Source: a virus. From it: a stretch of DNA of 23,321 bases. Each line of letters starts with the position of its first letter. Position 1 is the stretch's first letter. A program made the position numbers and the translations under genes. Location: positions 1 to 23,321 of IMG/VR virus record IMGVR_UViG_3300033388_000584; one strand, 5' to 3'. The notes below the pieces were generated by a model. The model was not told where the DNA came from and did not search any database. It saw only the letters and a program-made list of their open reading frames with translations. This document shows positions 752-13,549 of this stretch, piece by piece.

Positions 752-915
752 AACTGGCAGACCTGAACGAGGGTGACGAGGTGCTGTACGAAGGTTGTAC
801 GTACAACGTTGTAGATGTGCTGGCCTCGCAAGTGTACCTTGCTGACGTCTCAGGAGCGCACGTGTGGGTGCTGCAAGCCAACACCCCGAAACTGGAGAGG
901 ATTGACTATGACTAA
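742..915 (+). CDS. 57-residue hypothetical protein (SH3-like beta pattern)
   Basis: A short gene reading MQVKLADLNEGDEVLYEG at its start and ending IDYD. The alternating beta pattern with GDEVLY looks like a small barrel, which is common in tiny phage proteins, but I cannot assign a function. It overlaps the preceding gene by 10 bases and the following one by 8. The palindromic site at 794 to 811 lies inside the frame, encoding part of GCTYNVV. The ribosome-binding site is not strong (GATGGGGTGGGT upstream). The compact gene chain and protein-like composition are the main support. Confidence 0.6.
   Translation: MQVKLADLNEGDEVLYEGCTYNVVDVLASQVYLADVSGAHVWVLQANTPKLERIDYD
794..811. promoter_or_regulatory. 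Palindromic site 1 (GTTGTACGTACAAC core)
   Basis: GTTGTACGTACAAC at 794 to 807 is a perfect 14-bp palindrome followed by GTTG. Closely related sites occur at 1568, 4731 and 8169. Here it lies inside a small gene, so an operator, replication or packaging-related role is more likely than a conventional promoter. The function is unknown. Confidence 0.6.
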
Positions 916-1165: not shown

Positions 1166-1563
1166 TGAATCCGATAGTAGCAGCAGTGACAGCACTGGTC
1201 AGTCCAGTTACCAAAGTCTTTACAGCCCGCGAGAAGCGCAAGCAGGCCAAGCAAGAGATCGAAGGTAACATCGCACTGGCGAAGAACAACAACCAGACGA
1301 CCATCACGGTAGGGGTACAGGCATGGGAAGCACTGACAGCAAAGGGACTGAGCAGCAGTCTCAAGGACGAGTGGGCGGTACTGGTGGGGACATCGCCCCT
1401 GTACATGACAATGATTGGCGCAGTGCTCTTTGCCTTCGGCTATACGAAGGCGCTGGAGGGCGTACAACTTGGTCTGGCACTATTGACGGACATGGGTATA
1501 CCGTTAGGTCCGATGGTTATGATGACATTGGCAGCGGCTCTGGGAATCAGGTGGAGTAAGTAA
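1165..1563 (+). CDS. Small membrane protein, candidate holin
   Basis: A 132-residue protein. A polar, basic N-terminal third (AREKRKQAKQEIEG, about residues 20 to 33) is followed by a SSLKDEW segment and then by two or three hydrophobic stretches between about residues 75 and 130. The SLKDEW-then-membrane layout recalls phage holins of the three-membrane-segment type, which let endolysin reach the cell wall. The match is by general architecture only. The start is ATG 1165, overlapping the previous TGA by one base, with GAGGAAGG upstream. The location is odd for a holin: it sits directly before DNA polymerase and far from the lysozyme gene at 8385 to 8867. A membrane anchor for replication is an alternative. 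Confidence 0.6.
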   Translation: MNPIVAAVTALVSPVTKVFTAREKRKQAKQEIEGNIALAKNNNQTTITVGVQAWEALTAKGLSSSLKDEWAVLVGTSPLYMTMIGAVLFAFGYTKALEGVQLGLALLTDMGIPLGPMVMMTLAAALGIRWSK

Positions 1564-3380
1564 TGAGCGTTGTACATACAACGTTGCCCAAGTTCTTGAC
1601 CGAGCCTGACCCTGAGATATACAGGTCGGAGAACTACGTTGTTGTGGACTTCGAGACAACCAACATCGAGAAAGGCACACCCCTCAACGATGACAACAAG
1701 CTAGTGCTGGCCGCATGGTGGACCCCCACCGGCGGCATGAAGTACAAGTGGGGTGGGGAGTTTGAGCAACAAGAACTGATCGCAGCGTGCGAAGCTGCCG
1801 ACTTTATCGTGGCACACAATGCCGGGTTCGAGTTGGGCTGGCTACGCCGGTGCGGTCTGAAACTAGAAGAAACGCTGGTCTGGTGTACCCAGATCGCAGA
1901 CTACGTCATAGGAGGAAACCGATGGCAATTGAACAAACTTTCCTTGAGCGAGTGCGCCTCGCGGCACGGTATATCCGTGGAGAAGGACGACTTCGTATCA
2001 TCCTTGATCCGGAAAGCGAAGATCTGCCCCTCCGACATACCCCGGCGGTTACTATTGAAGTACTGCATGACGGACGTGGAGGTTACGAGGTGGCTGTTCG
2101 CAAGCCAGCTCGACCAGACCGATCAGCTCCCGATAATCTACACTAGATGCCTAGCTACGCCGGTACTCACCGATATAGAGTTCAACGGGATGCAGCTAGA
2201 CGTCGATGCAGTGCAGGCTATGTACGACACCAAGAGGCGGGAGTTCGCGGAGGCACAGGAGACACTGGGCCGGATGACGGGCGGGATCAACTTCAGATCG
2301 CCTGTTCAACTGGCGGAGTTCCTGTACGACGAGTTGAAGTTCGCGGAACTAAAGGACCGCCGAGGCAGCCCACTTCGGACCGCTAAGGGCGGGAGGCTTA
2401 CAGCACAGGACGTGGTGCTCCGGTTGCCGTGCAAGAACAAGCGGCAGACTGAGTTCATCGCCCAGTACAAGCTGACCAAGGCACTGAGTAATGAGATCAC
2501 TAAGTATCTCAGCAAGCTGAACGCGTGTTGTGAGGAGGCTGAAGGCTTCCTACAGGGCAAGTTCAATCAAACTAACACCCAGACGCACAGGCTGAGTAGC
2601 TCGGGACTGCGGTACAAGTGCCAGTTCCAGAACTTCCCGCGTGCGTACAAGAAGATATTCAAGGCTAGACATGATGGATGGTTCGTTGGAGAAGCAGATG
2701 GAGCACAGCTTGAGTTCCGGGCTGCTGCACAACTTGGAAGGGATCGAGTCGCGATTGACGACATTGTTGAGGGAACCGATATACATTCAGTCACGGCTGA
2801 CATTATCGGAGTCACTCGCCAAGACGCGAAGGCACATACATTCAAGCCACTATACGGAGGCACTAGCGGAACTGAAGCACAGCAGAGATATTATAAGTTC
2901 TTTGCGGAGAAGTATAGCGGAATCACGGAGACACAAAAGGGATGGATTAATACCGTCCTAGAGAACAAGTTTCTGGAGACCGAGTGGGGGATGAGGTACT
3001 ACTGGCCGGACTGCAAGATGTCACGCAGCGGCTACGTTGAGTACACGACCTCCATCTGTAACTACCCCGTTCAAGCGTTTGCCACGGCAGAGATCATCCC
3101 TATGGCTCTGACGTTCTTCTGGCACTACTTGAAGCGGAGTGATTACAAGATGCTACTGGTCAATACGGTGCACGACTCCGTCATTGCGGAGATCCCACCT
3201 GACGAGGTAGCGGCATTCAAAGAGCTATCGAAACTATCGTTCCTCGACAATGTTGCGTTGTACATGAAGAAGTGTTATAATGTAGACATGATTGTACCAC
3301 TCGCCACTGGCATTAAGATTGCAGAGCGGTGGGGTGCAACAGACGAGGAGGAATTATTTACTATGGAGTTACAAGCATGA
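1563..3380 (+). CDS. DNA polymerase, family A, with 3'-5' exonuclease domain
   Basis: A 605-residue replicative polymerase. The N-terminal proofreading domain has Exo I at D29/E31 (VVVDFETT), Exo II at HNAGFE (85 to 90, with Glu where Asp is usual) and Exo III Y167-x3-D171. The polymerase domain has a THRLSS motif (341 to 346), motif A EADGAQLEFR with D379, motif B R419-x3-K423-x3-F427-x3-Y431-G, and motif C VHDSV with D538. Ser539 replaces the usual Glu of HDE. F427 occupies the position of E. coli Pol I F762. The start ATG 1563 overlaps the previous stop by one base, and the stop overlaps the next start (ATGA). A palindromic site covers codons 2 to 8. The stretch around motifs A and B (about 2660 to 2960) looks more AT-rich than its flanks. 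Confidence 0.95.
   Translation: MSVVHTTLPKFLTEPDPEIYRSENYVVVDFETTNIEKGTPLNDDNKLVLAAWWTPTGGMKYKWGGEFEQQELIAACEAADFIVAHNAGFELGWLRRCGLKLEETLVWCTQIADYVIGGNRWQLNKLSLSECASRHGISVEKDDFVSSLIRKAKICPSDIPRRLLLKYCMTDVEVTRWLFASQLDQTDQLPIIYTRCLATPVLTDIEFNGMQLDVDAVQAMYDTKRREFAEAQETLGRMTGGINFRSPVQLAEFLYDELKFAELKDRRGSPLRTAKGGRLTAQDVVLRLPCKNKRQTEFIAQYKLTKALSNEITKYLSKLNACCEEAEGFLQGKFNQTNTQTHRLSSSGLRYKCQFQNFPRAYKKIFKARHDGWFVGEADGAQLEFRAAAQLGRDRVAIDDIVEGTDIHSVTADIIGVTRQDAKAHTFKPLYGGTSGTEAQQRYYKFFAEKYSGITETQKGWINTVLENKFLETEWGMRYYWPDCKMSRSGYVEYTTSICNYPVQAFATAEIIPMALTFFWHYLKRSDYKMLLVNTVHDSVIAEIPPDEVAAFKELSKLSFLDNVALYMKKCYNVDMIVPLATGIKIAERWGATDEEELFTMELQA
1568..1586. promoter_or_regulatory. Palindromic site 2 at the start of the polymerase gene
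   Basis: CGTTGTACATACAACG at 1568 to 1583 has 7-base arms around a CA centre, followed by TTG. It begins five bases after the A of the polymerase ATG, the only site of the four placed at a gene start. This would suit repression of initiation or translation, but that is inference. Confidence 0.55.
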
Positions 3381-4269: not shown

Positions 4270-5126
4270 TCGGCTGGGTTGACGGGGACGTACTGGTCTA
4301 CAGGGCCGCGTTCGCCGCACAGAAGAAGGTGTGGTTCTACACTGACGGCAGGGACGGGGGCATCGTGGCCTCGTTCGGCTACAAGAAGGACGCTACCGAC
4401 TGGCTAGAGCTACACCCCGAACCAGAGGAAGCTGTGCACTACGCGCTCGAGAGCGAGTACGATGTGCAGCCCGAGGACGAGGCTAGGTTCATCTGTGGAC
4501 ACATGCTCCGGCAGATCAAGAAGGGCCTCAAGCTCAAGGCGATGGAGGTAGGTATCACTGGCGATGGCAACTTCAGGGAGGAGGTTGCCGTCACGAAGCC
4601 CTACAAGGGCAACAGGGCCGCTGAGAAGCCCATACACTACGAGGCTGTCCGCGAGTACCTGCTGGATGAGTGGGACGCGCACCTCGTAGAGGGGCAAGAG
4701 GCTGACGATTGGATGGCGATCCACCACATGCAACGTTATACGTACAACGTTGATGACACGGTGATCATTACCATTGACAAGGATCTGGACATGGTGCCCG
4801 GCCGTCACTACAACTTCGTGGAGAAGAAGAAGTATGTCATCACACCCGAGGAAGGACTGCTGCGGTTCGCCGGACAGTTGCTCACTGGAGATAGCACGGA
4901 TAACATCCAAGGAGCTAAAGGATACGGTGCTGCGAAAGCACGGCGGGCACTTGGGGATCTTGGCCCAGCCGAGGCTCTGGTACTCGTACGTCAGGTTTAT
5001 GCTGACCTATATGGAGATGAAGCGGAAGATATTCTTGACGAGATGGCTACACTGCTCTGGATGAGACAGGAGGAAGGACAGACATGGCAGGAGGGGTGGA
5101 CGAAGCAGATGGAGATGGTGACGTAA
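4266..5126 (+). CDS. 5'-3' exonuclease, flap endonuclease family
   Basis: A 286-residue nuclease of the PIN/FEN type that removes primers or degrades host or replication-intermediate DNA from 5' ends. Visible metal ligands are WVDGD (D6, D8), EADDW (E135, D137, D138) and TIDKDLD (D161, D163, D165). The helix-three-turn-helix DNA-binding loop is TGDSTDNIQGAKGYGAAKA, starting at about residue 197. KPYKGNR (102 to 107) matches the basic arch of phage relatives. In this frame an upstream TGA at 4251 leaves TTG 4266 as the only reasonable start; it overlaps the previous stop. A palindromic site lies inside the gene at 4731. The 3' end overlaps a candidate 57-residue gene. Confidence 0.88.
   Translation: MIGWVDGDVLVYRAAFAAQKKVWFYTDGRDGGIVASFGYKKDATDWLELHPEPEEAVHYALESEYDVQPEDEARFICGHMLRQIKKGLKLKAMEVGITGDGNFREEVAVTKPYKGNRAAEKPIHYEAVREYLLDEWDAHLVEGQEADDWMAIHHMQRYTYNVDDTVIITIDKDLDMVPGRHYNFVEKKKYVITPEEGLLRFAGQLLTGDSTDNIQGAKGYGAAKARRALGDLGPAEALVLVRQVYADLYGDEAEDILDEMATLLWMRQEEGQTWQEGWTKQMEMVT
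4731..4752. promoter_or_regulatory. Palindromic site 3, extended 22-bp form
   Basis: CAACGTTATACGTACAACGT plus TG is a 22-bp palindrome with one mismatched pair. It extends the core seen at the other three sites by three bases on each side. It lies within the exonuclease gene, encoding QRYTYNV. No nearby promoter is evident. Confidence 0.55.
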
Positions 5127-8122: not shown

Positions 8123-8168
8123 CCACGATCAGGTAGCAGCGACCATCAAGGAGATCACGGGGGGTTAA
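8013..8168 (+). CDS. 51-residue basic protein, last gene of the rightward operon
   Basis: The frame is open from ATG 7980, but ATG 8013 is preferred because AAGGAGGAG lies six to ten bases upstream. The product starts MGRKMLVHLAKQYVARRAKD, with a continuous basic helix, and ends TIKEITGG. It overlaps the previous gene by 110 bases. The small size, helical content and strong ribosome-binding site make it credible. Its function is unknown; a nucleic-acid-binding peptide is one possibility. The stop TAA abuts the palindromic site at 8169. Confidence 0.6.
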   Translation: MGRKMLVHLAKQYVARRAKDGKGEAERWARRTLSPADHDQVAATIKEITGG

Positions 8169-8184
8169 CGTTGTACGTACAACG
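8169..8184. promoter_or_regulatory. Palindromic site 4, perfect 16-bp palindrome between convergent operons
   Basis: CGTTGTACGTACAACG fills exactly the 16 bases between the stop codons of the two converging operons. It is self-complementary throughout, with no loop and no T tract, so it is not a conventional terminator. It is the best-matching member of the four-site family. Confidence 0.65.
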
Positions 8185-8385
8185 CTAGACCCGCTCCATG
8201 TTTAGAACAAACTCGTGAACACTGCCCTCGTCGGCACGGCATGTCATTCGATATACCGGACCGGCGGGGGTTTTTTGTGTCTGCGCTATACACAACTCCA
8301 TAGCAACGGGGTGAAAGAACGCGGCCATGATGACCGTCTTGAATCCCATCTTGGTGATGAGCATAGTGCTGACTGTCTGGAACAT
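8185..8385 (-). CDS. 66-residue hypothetical protein, last gene of the leftward operon
   Basis: The product starts MFQTVSTMLITKMGFKTVIM and ends VHEFVLNMERV. It is unrecognised, and its hydrophobic N-terminal half could be a weak membrane segment. ATG 8385 shares one base with the TAA of the lysozyme gene (TAATG), with AAGGGGA upstream. The frame is open farther upstream to 8493, but that would bury it in the lysozyme gene. Oddly, the rightward operon's apparent terminator, with its T6 tract at 8271, lies on the opposite strand of this gene, where it encodes part of QKTPAGP. Position next to the lysozyme allows a lysis role, but this is a guess. Confidence 0.55.
   Translation of the reverse strand: MFQTVSTMLITKMGFKTVIMAAFFHPVAMELCIAQTQKTPAGPVYRMTCRADEGSVHEFVLNMERV
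8225..8276 (+). terminator. Rho-independent terminator of the rightward operon
   Basis: In plus-strand RNA, CCCUCGUCGG (8225 to 8234) pairs with CCGGCGGGGG (8261 to 8270). This gives a 10-bp GC-rich stem with two G-U pairs, followed at once by UUUUUU (8271 to 8276). CGG 8237 to 8239 and CCG 8256 to 8258 can extend the stem after a small internal loop. It lies about 55 bases past the last rightward stop, inside the converging gene. Confidence 0.7.
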
Positions 8386-8867
8386 TACTTGGGGATCCCC
8401 TTCATAAAGTCGTGCACGGAGATGCCGGAGCTGTTCAGCCCGTCCCCATCGTAGTAGCTCTTGCCTGTGCTCGGGTTGGGCATAGAGGCCCACTCCTTGC
8501 TGATCTCCTTAGCAAACCCGGTGCGGTCGTACACGCCCCCAGAGGTAGACATTGCCCGCTTGTACCGGCGCTCTATCAGGATATCGGCCAGCCTGTCCTG
8601 CGTTTCAGCATCGAACTTCTTGTCCAGAGGGAAGTCCTTGGGGTTACGGCGCACTATCTCGTCCAACGTCTTGTTGATGAACTGGTAGCGCCCCACAGCC
8701 GTGGACTTCACGCCCGCTTGCTTCTGGGCACGTTGGTGAGCCAAGACCTGACGGATCGTCATGTTCTTCAGGTCAAGGCTACCGCCTCCGTACTCGACAT
8801 CGTAGATGCCGCCGGGGGACTCGTGCTTACCGATCATGTCCCTCAGCGACTTGTACTTGTCTGCCAT
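8385..8867 (-). CDS. Lambda R/GH104-like lysozyme (endolysin or virion muralytic enzyme)
   Basis: A 160-residue peptidoglycan-cleaving enzyme. The N-terminal MIGKHESPGG has the expected catalytic Glu (E16, comparable to lambda R E19). It is followed by YDVEYGGGS, STAVGRYQFINKTLDEIV (about residue 55) and KFDAETQDRLADILI, the order seen in lambda-type transglycosylases. EISKEWASMPNPSTGKSYY near the end also matches that family's ASLP region. There is no signal peptide, so release would need a holin if it is the endolysin. Its place directly after three ejection-protein genes also fits a virion enzyme that digests the wall during entry. It is coupled by one-base overlaps on both sides. Confidence 0.75.
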   Translation of the reverse strand: MADKYKSLRDMIGKHESPGGIYDVEYGGGSLDLKNMTIRQVLAHQRAQKQAGVKSTAVGRYQFINKTLDEIVRRNPKDFPLDKKFDAETQDRLADILIERRYKRAMSTSGGVYDRTGFAKEISKEWASMPNPSTGKSYYDGDGLNSSGISVHDFMKGIPK

Positions 8868-11920: not shown

Positions 11921-13549
11921 TTAATTGCCGAACAGTGCGTCCGCACGGCTATTCAGTTCTGCTTCCCGCCGGGCGTTCGTGGTCATGGGAGGTGCTGCCG
12001 CTGGGGAAGTACCTGCTGCACGCTGTGCGGCTTGGCCCGTCATCGTGGTACGCTGAGTGGCGGGGGCACGACCTTCGACCGGCCTGCCTCCACCGCCGTA
12101 GCGGGTGTCACCAGCAGCGCCCTGCCCGTAGGCATCAAGGCGTGTGACCAGATCACCTACGACCTGCATCCGCTGGTCCCTCGCTCCCTCTGCGATCAAC
12201 AAGTCCCCGATCTGATCCGGGTATGTCATCATCGCACTGTCGAAGTCAGAGTTAGCTTGGCGGATGTTCGTGGCGATCACGTGACGGAGAGCCTCTGGGT
12301 TGGTCAGGTTTGCACCTACCACAGCCGCCGCACGTTCGATATCACCTTCCGACAACTGCTTGGCGTTGGGTTCAAAGACCCGGGCCATCGCGTACGTCAT
12401 CTTCCACATAGCCGACTCAAACTGGCCGTGGCCTTCTTCAAAGACCTTGCCTCCCGAGGCGTTCTTGAGAGTCTCCATTGCCCGCTCTCGGACCTTCGCC
12501 ATAGAGGTGGTAGCCGCGTCCAGTCCGCCACTGCCTTCCAGAATGGACTGGTTGTCGTTGAAGTACGCCCCGATGTTCCGGAACGAGTTGCTCACCGTCT
12601 TGACGAAGTCTACGGTATCTGCTGCTATCTTACCGCCCGGGCCGGTCAGAGTGTCCTCACTCCCATTGATCTGGTAACTGGCGTTCTCGATAATGTTCAG
12701 CATGGAGTCCGCAACACGAGCCTGTGACACCAAGTTGGTGTGGGCCGTGCGGTGTGCAGACTGCTGAGTCGGAGAGGCGTAGGCTCGAACCAAGTCCGCC
12801 TTATCCTTCGCCGTACCGGCTGCAACCAAGTTCTGATCCTCTGGATCCAAGTCGATGAAGTCCTCTTTGGACACCACCGTGCCGTCAGCACCGAGCCACT
12901 CGCCGTTGGGCTGCATCATCACAAGCTGCGCCTGACCGTTGGGATCACCCTTCGGCCATACGTGCAACTGAGCGGCCTTCTGGCCGTCGATGGCGTCACG
13001 CCTAGCCTTAGCGTTATCGTTCCGGATCTCGGTGTCGATGTTCCCAGCTTTCGCCTCCTTCACCGTTGCCTCGGCACTCAGCTTACGCTGCTCTACCTCA
13101 GCCTTCTTCATCGCCACGATAGACGATGCGTACTGAGATGCGGCGTTGCTAGCCACTTGCGGCATACCGGCCTTCTGGGCCTCTTGGGCCACGGACTTGA
13201 GGTACTCGTTCTTCTGCTGTCCCGGAGACAGGGTAGCCCAGTCGGGCTGCGCCATCCGCTTCTCCATGGAGGTACGGACAGAGTCACTCAACTGGGTCAT
13301 CTTGTACTCAGGAGACTGCTGGGCTTCAGCCGTAGCCTTCTCCCGTGCTTGGCGCTTGCGGCGCGTAGAGCCAATCATGGCCCCACGCATCCACGCCTTG
13401 CTCATGCCAGCGTTAGCGGCCAGCCCCATCTCGTTAGCCTCGGACTGGAGACGTTCCTGTTCCCGGACACGTTCATAGCGGTCCTGTATCTGCTCAGGCG
13501 TCTCGGTAGGCATACCGAACTGCGAGAGGAATGTTTGAGCATCAGCCAT
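11921..13549 (-). CDS. Internal virion (ejection) protein, 542 residues
   Basis: The product is almost entirely charged helix in its first half (ERVREQERLQSEANEMG, then STRRKRQAREKATAEAQQ, residues about 25 to 80). It has further helical segments in the middle, and its C-terminus is Ala/Thr/Gly-rich and probably disordered (about 470 to 525). It has no enzymatic motif. Lying between the other two large proteins, it corresponds by position to the medium-size ejection protein of podoviruses (T7 gp15-like). The gene begins one base past the stop of the preceding gene and ends just before the 1013-residue gene. The assignment rests on context and composition. Confidence 0.65.
   Translation of the reverse strand: MADAQTFLSQFGMPTETPEQIQDRYERVREQERLQSEANEMGLAANAGMSKAWMRGAMIGSTRRKRQAREKATAEAQQSPEYKMTQLSDSVRTSMEKRMAQPDWATLSPGQQKNEYLKSVAQEAQKAGMPQVASNAASQYASSIVAMKKAEVEQRKLSAEATVKEAKAGNIDTEIRNDNAKARRDAIDGQKAAQLHVWPKGDPNGQAQLVMMQPNGEWLGADGTVVSKEDFIDLDPEDQNLVAAGTAKDKADLVRAYASPTQQSAHRTAHTNLVSQARVADSMLNIIENASYQINGSEDTLTGPGGKIAADTVDFVKTVSNSFRNIGAYFNDNQSILEGSGGLDAATTSMAKVRERAMETLKNASGGKVFEEGHGQFESAMWKMTYAMARVFEPNAKQLSEGDIERAAAVVGANLTNPEALRHVIATNIRQANSDFDSAMMTYPDQIGDLLIAEGARDQRMQVVGDLVTRLDAYGQGAAGDTRYGGGGRPVEGRAPATQRTTMTGQAAQRAAGTSPAAAPPMTTNARREAELNSRADALFGN

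Follow-up and report, generated by a model that had tools for sequence, protein, structure and literature searches.

Dispersed palindromic sites along the early arm and at the converging gene junction of podoviruses related to Zobellviridae

Described systems of dispersed phage sites

The closest described systems are the stoperators of the cluster A mycobacteriophages and the SPBRE repeats of phage SPbeta. Cluster A phages such as L5 and Bxb1 (repressor Rep) carry many stoperators per genome, with each phage having its own variant; a site lies upstream of the repressor gene and more lie downstream, with an operator at the early promoter (PMC6550527, PMC9283540). SPBRE, a 15-bp sequence repeated in the intergenic promoter regions of a single phage genome, was recognized by in silico analysis; its master repressor MrpR, itself phage-encoded, was identified 24 years later (PMC10516654). 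SPbeta is a prophage of a lineage unrelated to the present phages, and MrpR has a tyrosine-recombinase-like fold; Pfam and fold searches with the candidate binders considered below gave no match. The conserved inverted repeats of phiC31 are likewise near-palindromic sites for a repressor, scattered close to early promoters and to the ends of genes; this is an actinophage system with a different repressor, and it is likened to the present sites by layout, not by sequence. To our knowledge, most systems of dispersed repressor sites described so far belong to temperate phages that infect actinobacteria or Bacillus.

The window analyzed here (the whole of a 23,321-base virus record, a linear fragment) and its relatives resemble the cluster A phages in carrying many copies of one site, enriched in the early arm (4 in the window and 13, 13, and 11, respectively, in the related records G001, G010, and G011). 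However, stoperators are asymmetric and mostly keep one orientation to transcription, whereas the sites here are perfect or near-perfect palindromes; because asymmetry is a defining feature that fails here, these palindromes are not filed under stoperators. Cluster A phages also carry an integrase or parABS, neither of which is known in the present phages. Where cluster A phages have a repressor gene with sites around it, the present phages have a candidate gene that is flanked by sites, may encode a repressor, and has no detected domain. As with SPBRE, the repeated sites of Stenotrophomonas phage StenR_269 and Vibrio phage 1.015.O are mostly intergenic (7/9 and 10/12, in stretches with intergenic shares of 6.4% and 9.3%); in contrast to these two annotated genomes, the window's three upstream copies lie within genes. 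The junction itself resembles the ordinary intrinsic terminators of converging operons in having a stem and T-run at the rightward end (in the window, G001, and locus L129), but differs from them in that these stems lie past the palindrome, inside the opposing gene, and in that the palindrome has no T-run. No report of these palindromes in Zobellviridae-like phages was found in open-licence PMC papers, the literature covered.

The converging junction and the copies of its palindrome

The window consists of two converging arms. Up to position 8168 the genes are rightward and include those for a family A DNA polymerase (the query used for finding relatives), exonucleases, and a dATP/dGTP-hydrolase-like protein; from 8185 on they are leftward, with an endolysin-like gene first and, farther along, one for a major capsid protein, labeled from matches to an annotated major capsid protein and to its counterpart in G001. 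The other leftward genes between endolysin and capsid are presumably structural. The rightward stop codon (TAA, 8166-8168) is separated from the leftward one (8185-8187, CTA on the plus strand) by 16 bases, and the statement of a preliminary description that a palindrome alone fills this gap proved exact, as the intervening bases are precisely CGTTGTACGTACAACG (Table 1). The same description placed a rightward terminator within the opposing gene, and here too our analysis agrees: 8224-8234 pairs with 8261-8271 (11 pairs, including G-U), and T6 follows at 8271-8276. This element has the GC-rich stem and subsequent T-run of an intrinsic terminator and folds at -31.9 kcal/mol (z -5.1; 0/200 shuffles as good); it was missing from a simple terminator scan, in which the loop limit was 8 nt. 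Its bases do double as codons, as had been proposed, with the minus strand reading ...TQKTPAGPV..., and a search of the minus strand between 7940 and 8320 yielded no leftward terminator, also in line with the earlier account. Leftward transcripts may accordingly continue into the replication genes as antisense RNA, as that account suggested. The palindrome itself has no T-run after its stem on either strand and thus does not have the form of a terminator.

Table 1. Coordinates of features in the window (position 1 is the first base)
Feature	Position	Strand	Remarks
Dispersed site, one mismatch, GGTTGTACGTACAACG	793..808	no strand	in small ORF 742-915
Family A DNA polymerase gene	1563..3380	+	rightward replication arm
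Dispersed site, one mismatch, CGTTGTACATACAACG	1568..1583	no strand	first codons of DNA polymerase gene
Dispersed site, one mismatch, CGTTATACGTACAACG	4734..4749	no strand	within exonuclease gene
Last rightward ORF, 62 aa	7980..8168	+	ends directly before palindrome; one weak match in 357 loci
Perfect 16-bp palindrome, junction copy of dispersed site	8169..8184	no strand	same site at G001 junction
Last leftward ORF	8185..8493	-	102 aa from GTG; carries the terminator as coding DNA
Rightward intrinsic terminator	8224..8276	+	stem, inner hairpin, T6; inside last leftward ORF
Endolysin-like gene	8385..8867	-	next in leftward operon; phrog_90, phrog_30077

The last leftward ORF has no homologue among the 357 fetched loci and is taken to be a gene solely from its position. 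An alternative start, ATG at 8385, gives a product of 66 aa and forms a TAATG (8383-8387) overlapping the endolysin stop; translational coupling of the endolysin gene and the 66-aa ORF is possible at this point.

As a lone element the palindrome would be unremarkable: the one 16-bp palindrome found in the window, as against 0.36 expected in 23 kb, is compatible with chance. It is significant because three further copies, each with one mismatch, exist in the window. The resulting four copies compare with 0.08 expected, and 0/100 shuffles reach four, which rules out a chance origin of the site family. None of the four lies right of 8184: they are in the rightward arm or, for the junction copy, at its end, and the window's 15 kb of leftward genes contain none. 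The earlier view of the palindrome as particular to this junction is not supported, as it belongs to a dispersed family.

When the exact palindrome was sought in 2.9 million viral contigs, 14 stretches contained it, three of them from a single contig, G001 (IMGVR_UViG_3300032087_003052; 42,736 bases); the other 11, with one exact copy each, were taken as chance. G001 is syntenic with the window (polymerase 52% and capsid 67% identical) and carries 8 exact and 5 one-mismatch copies, spanning 9143 to 28152 of 42736, along with two further copies with three mismatches. These copies are dense at the divergent early promoter region, and one site is centered at +29 of a perfect TTGACA-17-TATAAT promoter; similarly, a site in G011 is centered at +64 of a perfect sigma-70 promoter. 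Flank pairing within the G001 sites is no better than between them, as expected for half-site preferences. The early operon of G001 also encodes an ECF-like sigma factor (L027:18714-19481; Sigma70_r2 and Sigma70_r4_2), which is not among the listed clusters common to at least three genomes.

The last G001 copy (28137-28152) again occupies the converging gap, between stops at 28127 and 28156, and a plus-strand stem at approximately 28168-28201 with a T-rich tail, ATCTTTTC, lies inside the opposing gene (z -2.8). L129 has the same layout as the window in a different sequence, with a palindrome at 12305-12318 and a stem at 12331. In both G001 and L129 a leftward terminator is present inside the last rightward gene; each operon's terminator apparently lies inside the other's last gene, with the palindrome between them (L028:8090-8210; L129:12270-12375). 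Because it recurs in these two genomes, the converging arrangement—a palindrome with a terminator in the opposing gene—looks like a selected layout. Nine junctions were inspected in all: the window, G001, L129, L136, and G013 (locus L137) have a copy in or at the converging gap, and G010 (L139) and G011 (L141) have one within about 400 bases of it, while the junctions of StenR_269 (L127/L290) and 1.015.O (L128) have none. The earlier proposal of a roadblock at the junction is therefore retained in part, since the layout recurs in G001 and L129 and the role is plausible, but neither the bare palindrome as the obstacle nor its specificity to this junction is supported. The palindromes of several relatives are AT-rich and barely fold as RNA, which makes a bound protein the likelier obstacle than bare DNA.

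Site families and the flanked gene in related phages

De novo scans for repeated near-palindromes covered 249 loci, and exact and gapped dyads were then sought in 44 records or loci, several of them chosen on account of a family already observed there. The relatives carry families that differ in spelling from that of the window and G001. TCACACGTGTGA occurs 13 times in G010 and 11 times in G011, TAGTTTAAACTA 13 times in G012, and TTAACATGTTAA eight times in G013; StenR_269 contains nine exact copies of TTTAACGTTAAA, all in the first part of its record, with none in the second part, which includes the structural arm. Vibrio phage 1.015.O has TATACATGTATA (5 copies) and TATACAnTGTATA (8 copies), two interleaved families whose spacing differs by one central base. 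Further families were found in L129 (TTGTACGTACAA, 4 copies), L136 (TTGTATATACAA, 4), L226 (GTCCTTAAGGAC, 4 exact), L156 (AGTAG-N6-CTACT, 6), and L251 (TGTTTAAACA, 10), and gapped dyads in G002 (4), G023 (6), G027 (4), G032 (6), and G037 (13); mirror-repeat controls at the gapped-dyad threshold gave 1/44. Within the 27 records chosen by polymerase alone (G019-G045), a family was recovered de novo in four (G023, G027, G032, and G037), a doubtful fifth appears in G029 (CGTTTAAACG, 5 copies; L307-L308), and one more, in G019, was seen beside the candidate gene discussed below. No site family was observed in VpV262, SIO1, 1.070.O, and most of the remaining scanned records; the first gene of VpV262 and of 1.070.O matches another PHROG, phrog_5277. 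Wherever both arms were examined, the relatives' site families are restricted to the early arm, and all sites of G001, G010, G011, and G012 fall within one span of the record.

An early cassette encoding gamma-glutamyl cyclotransferase, COOH-NH2 ligase/amidoligase, and class II glutamine amidotransferase is kept in G001 (L027:11801-18331), G010-G013, StenR_269, and G002. A further gene of this cassette is, we presume, ATP-grasp-like; together these genes suggest an amide-forming pathway common to the phage group.

At the early-promoter end of G001, G010-G013, StenR_269, and 1.015.O, sites lie on both sides of a gene of about 190-260 codons. In StenR_269, whose host is Stenotrophomonas rhizophila CEMTC 4565, this gene is WQZ00907, and in 1.015.O it is the first gene. 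A flanked gene is also present in G002, G023, G027, G032, and G037, where the gene was picked for having sites around it; choosing the gene by its flanking sites is circular for most genomes, and only G019 and L202 are prospective, having been reached by protein sequence. With an HMM built from the proteins of G001 and G013, a homologue was identified in G019, whose site family the de novo scans had missed: GTTATACGTATAAC and GTCATACGTATAAC lie one on each side of the gene and three more sites lie elsewhere, giving five copies of GTyATACGTATnAC in the record. L202 encodes a protein homologous to that of 1.015.O; its gene is truncated at the start of the contig and adjoins GTATACTAGTATAC (9 copies, including one-mismatch copies). 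As a control for finding an adjoining palindrome family, a similar search succeeded at 4/210 random intervals. Weak matches of the G001 and G013 profile were also obtained in L107 (E 0.0066) and L054 (E 0.064).

Several candidate proteins are homologous and can be compared together with their sites. The G002 and G010 proteins (BLASTP 1e-19) are associated with CTCACA-N3-TGTGAG and CTCACACGTGTGAG-like sites, and those of StenR_269 and G032 (4e-4) with TTTAACGTTAAA and TTAACnGTTAA. Half-site agreement averages 5.6/7 for 8 homologous protein pairs as compared with 3.3/7 for 83 others (permutation p 0.00015), although this co-variation of protein and site is confounded with descent, because site similarity tracks polymerase clades. 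The G001 and G013 proteins are homologous (2e-8), yet their sites are clearly different. Candidate proteins of different groups have no detectable homology to each other. A single conserved regulator common to all palindrome-bearing phages was also sought by all-against-all BLAST, which returned none.

Searches of Pfam, NCBIfam, and PHROGs assigned the candidate proteins no DNA-binding or other known domain passing the cut-off, and a PDB sequence search with the G001/G013/G019 profile gave 0 matches. Foldseek comparison of two candidate models with the PDB returned nothing at E <= 0.001; regulators of the MarR and TetR types appeared several times at E about 1 and were not counted as matches. 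The best VIA-align scores of the models (Z 7.7 and 7.0) were mostly to designed helical proteins and single helices, in a comparison where a family missing from the matches excludes nothing. The models themselves are fair at best (pLDDT 67 and 79).

Possible roles of the sites

These data make it highly probable that the palindromes constitute a family of sequence-specific operators. The overall reading that we favor, and regard as probable, is that an autoregulated phage DNA-binding protein uses them as dispersed operators to damp early transcription and forms a roadblock at the junction copy. Each palindrome would be the operator for a homodimeric, phage-encoded protein, with many copies along the early/replication operon, densest at early promoters, and one at the early/late convergence in several members. 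The binder would most likely be the product of the flanked gene at the early-promoter end, which for the window would lie to the left of the fragment; the positional association of sites with this gene makes the assignment a reasonable one, which we hold with somewhat better than even confidence. Such a protein would lower transcription, by repression or attenuation, both at the early promoter and farther downstream, including transcription of its own gene. Bound at the junction, it would serve as a roadblock backing up terminators that are read through, halting polymerases that pass the overlapping terminators; this attenuation and roadblock action is proposed more tentatively. Each phage lineage would possess its own protein-site specificity.

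Several other roles can be considered for these palindromes. They could bind a phage activator, or belong to phage promoters that switch on successive early genes, and many sites do lie directly upstream of a Shine-Dalgarno sequence and start codon (for example, 10600 and 11487 in G001; 19983 and 22591 in StenR_269; 4083 in L137). However, the sites associated with perfect sigma-70 promoters in G001 and G011 are downstream of the transcription start, not upstream, no further conserved promoter element was seen beside the palindrome, and copies at the junction or inside genes are not placed to switch on any gene; we consider a promoter or activator element unlikely. A partition, replication, or packaging site without a role in transcription—parS-like or iteron-like, and bound by a phage protein—would fit the clustering of sites at one end of the early arm, and the 16-bp palindrome frame GTTnnACGTnnAAC recalls chromosomal parS. 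This has a low probability, given sites distributed over approximately 20 kb, their placement at gene boundaries, the copy at the junction, and a Pfam scan of 20 proteins from G001 and the window (itself a fragment) that revealed neither ParB nor anything similar. The binder could instead be a host regulator or nucleoid protein, its sites differing as hosts differ; the families do vary among phages. Nevertheless, the sites are absent from the examined structural arms and track the adjoining phage gene, and the window's exact palindrome occurs only 6 times, as single copies, in the 84,980 species genomes scanned, making a host protein improbable. These six single exact copies rule out a widespread host chromosomal element in sequenced species.

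Two further possibilities involve no DNA-binding protein. If the palindromes acted as mRNA hairpins—in processing, stability, or translation control—rather than as DNA sites, their placement before ribosome sites would be readily accommodated, as would the folding of the window's leftward RNA around the palindrome (-23.1 kcal/mol, z -4.0). Yet the families of StenR_269 (-0.2 kcal/mol), 1.015.O (-0.4), and L251 (0) hardly fold, and the flanks of the G001 sites do not covary within sites; for these reasons RNA hairpins are very unlikely. Least of all do we credit the earlier reading, in which a single bare palindrome obstructs converging polymerases by its own structure. It accounts for the precise placement within the gap of both the window and G001, but not for copies elsewhere, inside genes and at gene starts; moreover, copies within one genome share their spelling, whereas other genomes spell the site differently. 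Structure alone would not demand such a pattern, which renders bare DNA structure exceedingly improbable.

Operators for a phage-encoded protein, as favored here, would also bear on the infection biology of these phages. The StenR_269 paper describes, in the parts that concern infection, weak lysis without a clearly detected integrase, with pseudolysogeny among the possible reasons; its main text makes no mention of palindromes, promoters, motifs, terminators, or repressors. A repressor of the proposed kind would be one explanation of this weak lysis. It is conceivable, though on the doubtful side, that podoviruses regarded as simple lytic phages carry a repressor-and-stoperator system built on a new protein family that matches no known fold, with a specificity that diversifies per lineage in the manner of immunity types. 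If true, a carrier state or superinfection exclusion could exist without an integrase, with the weak lysis of StenR_269 as one of its visible effects, made testable with one gene and nine sites. The sites described here would amount to a symmetric version of dispersed repressor sites, with lineage-specific spelling, in environmental podoviruses related to Zobellviridae. The specificity of an uncharacterized candidate protein family would be readable directly from genomes, and the system would reveal, in phages so far regarded as purely lytic, a hidden layer of gene control and possibly immunity groups that are likewise hidden.
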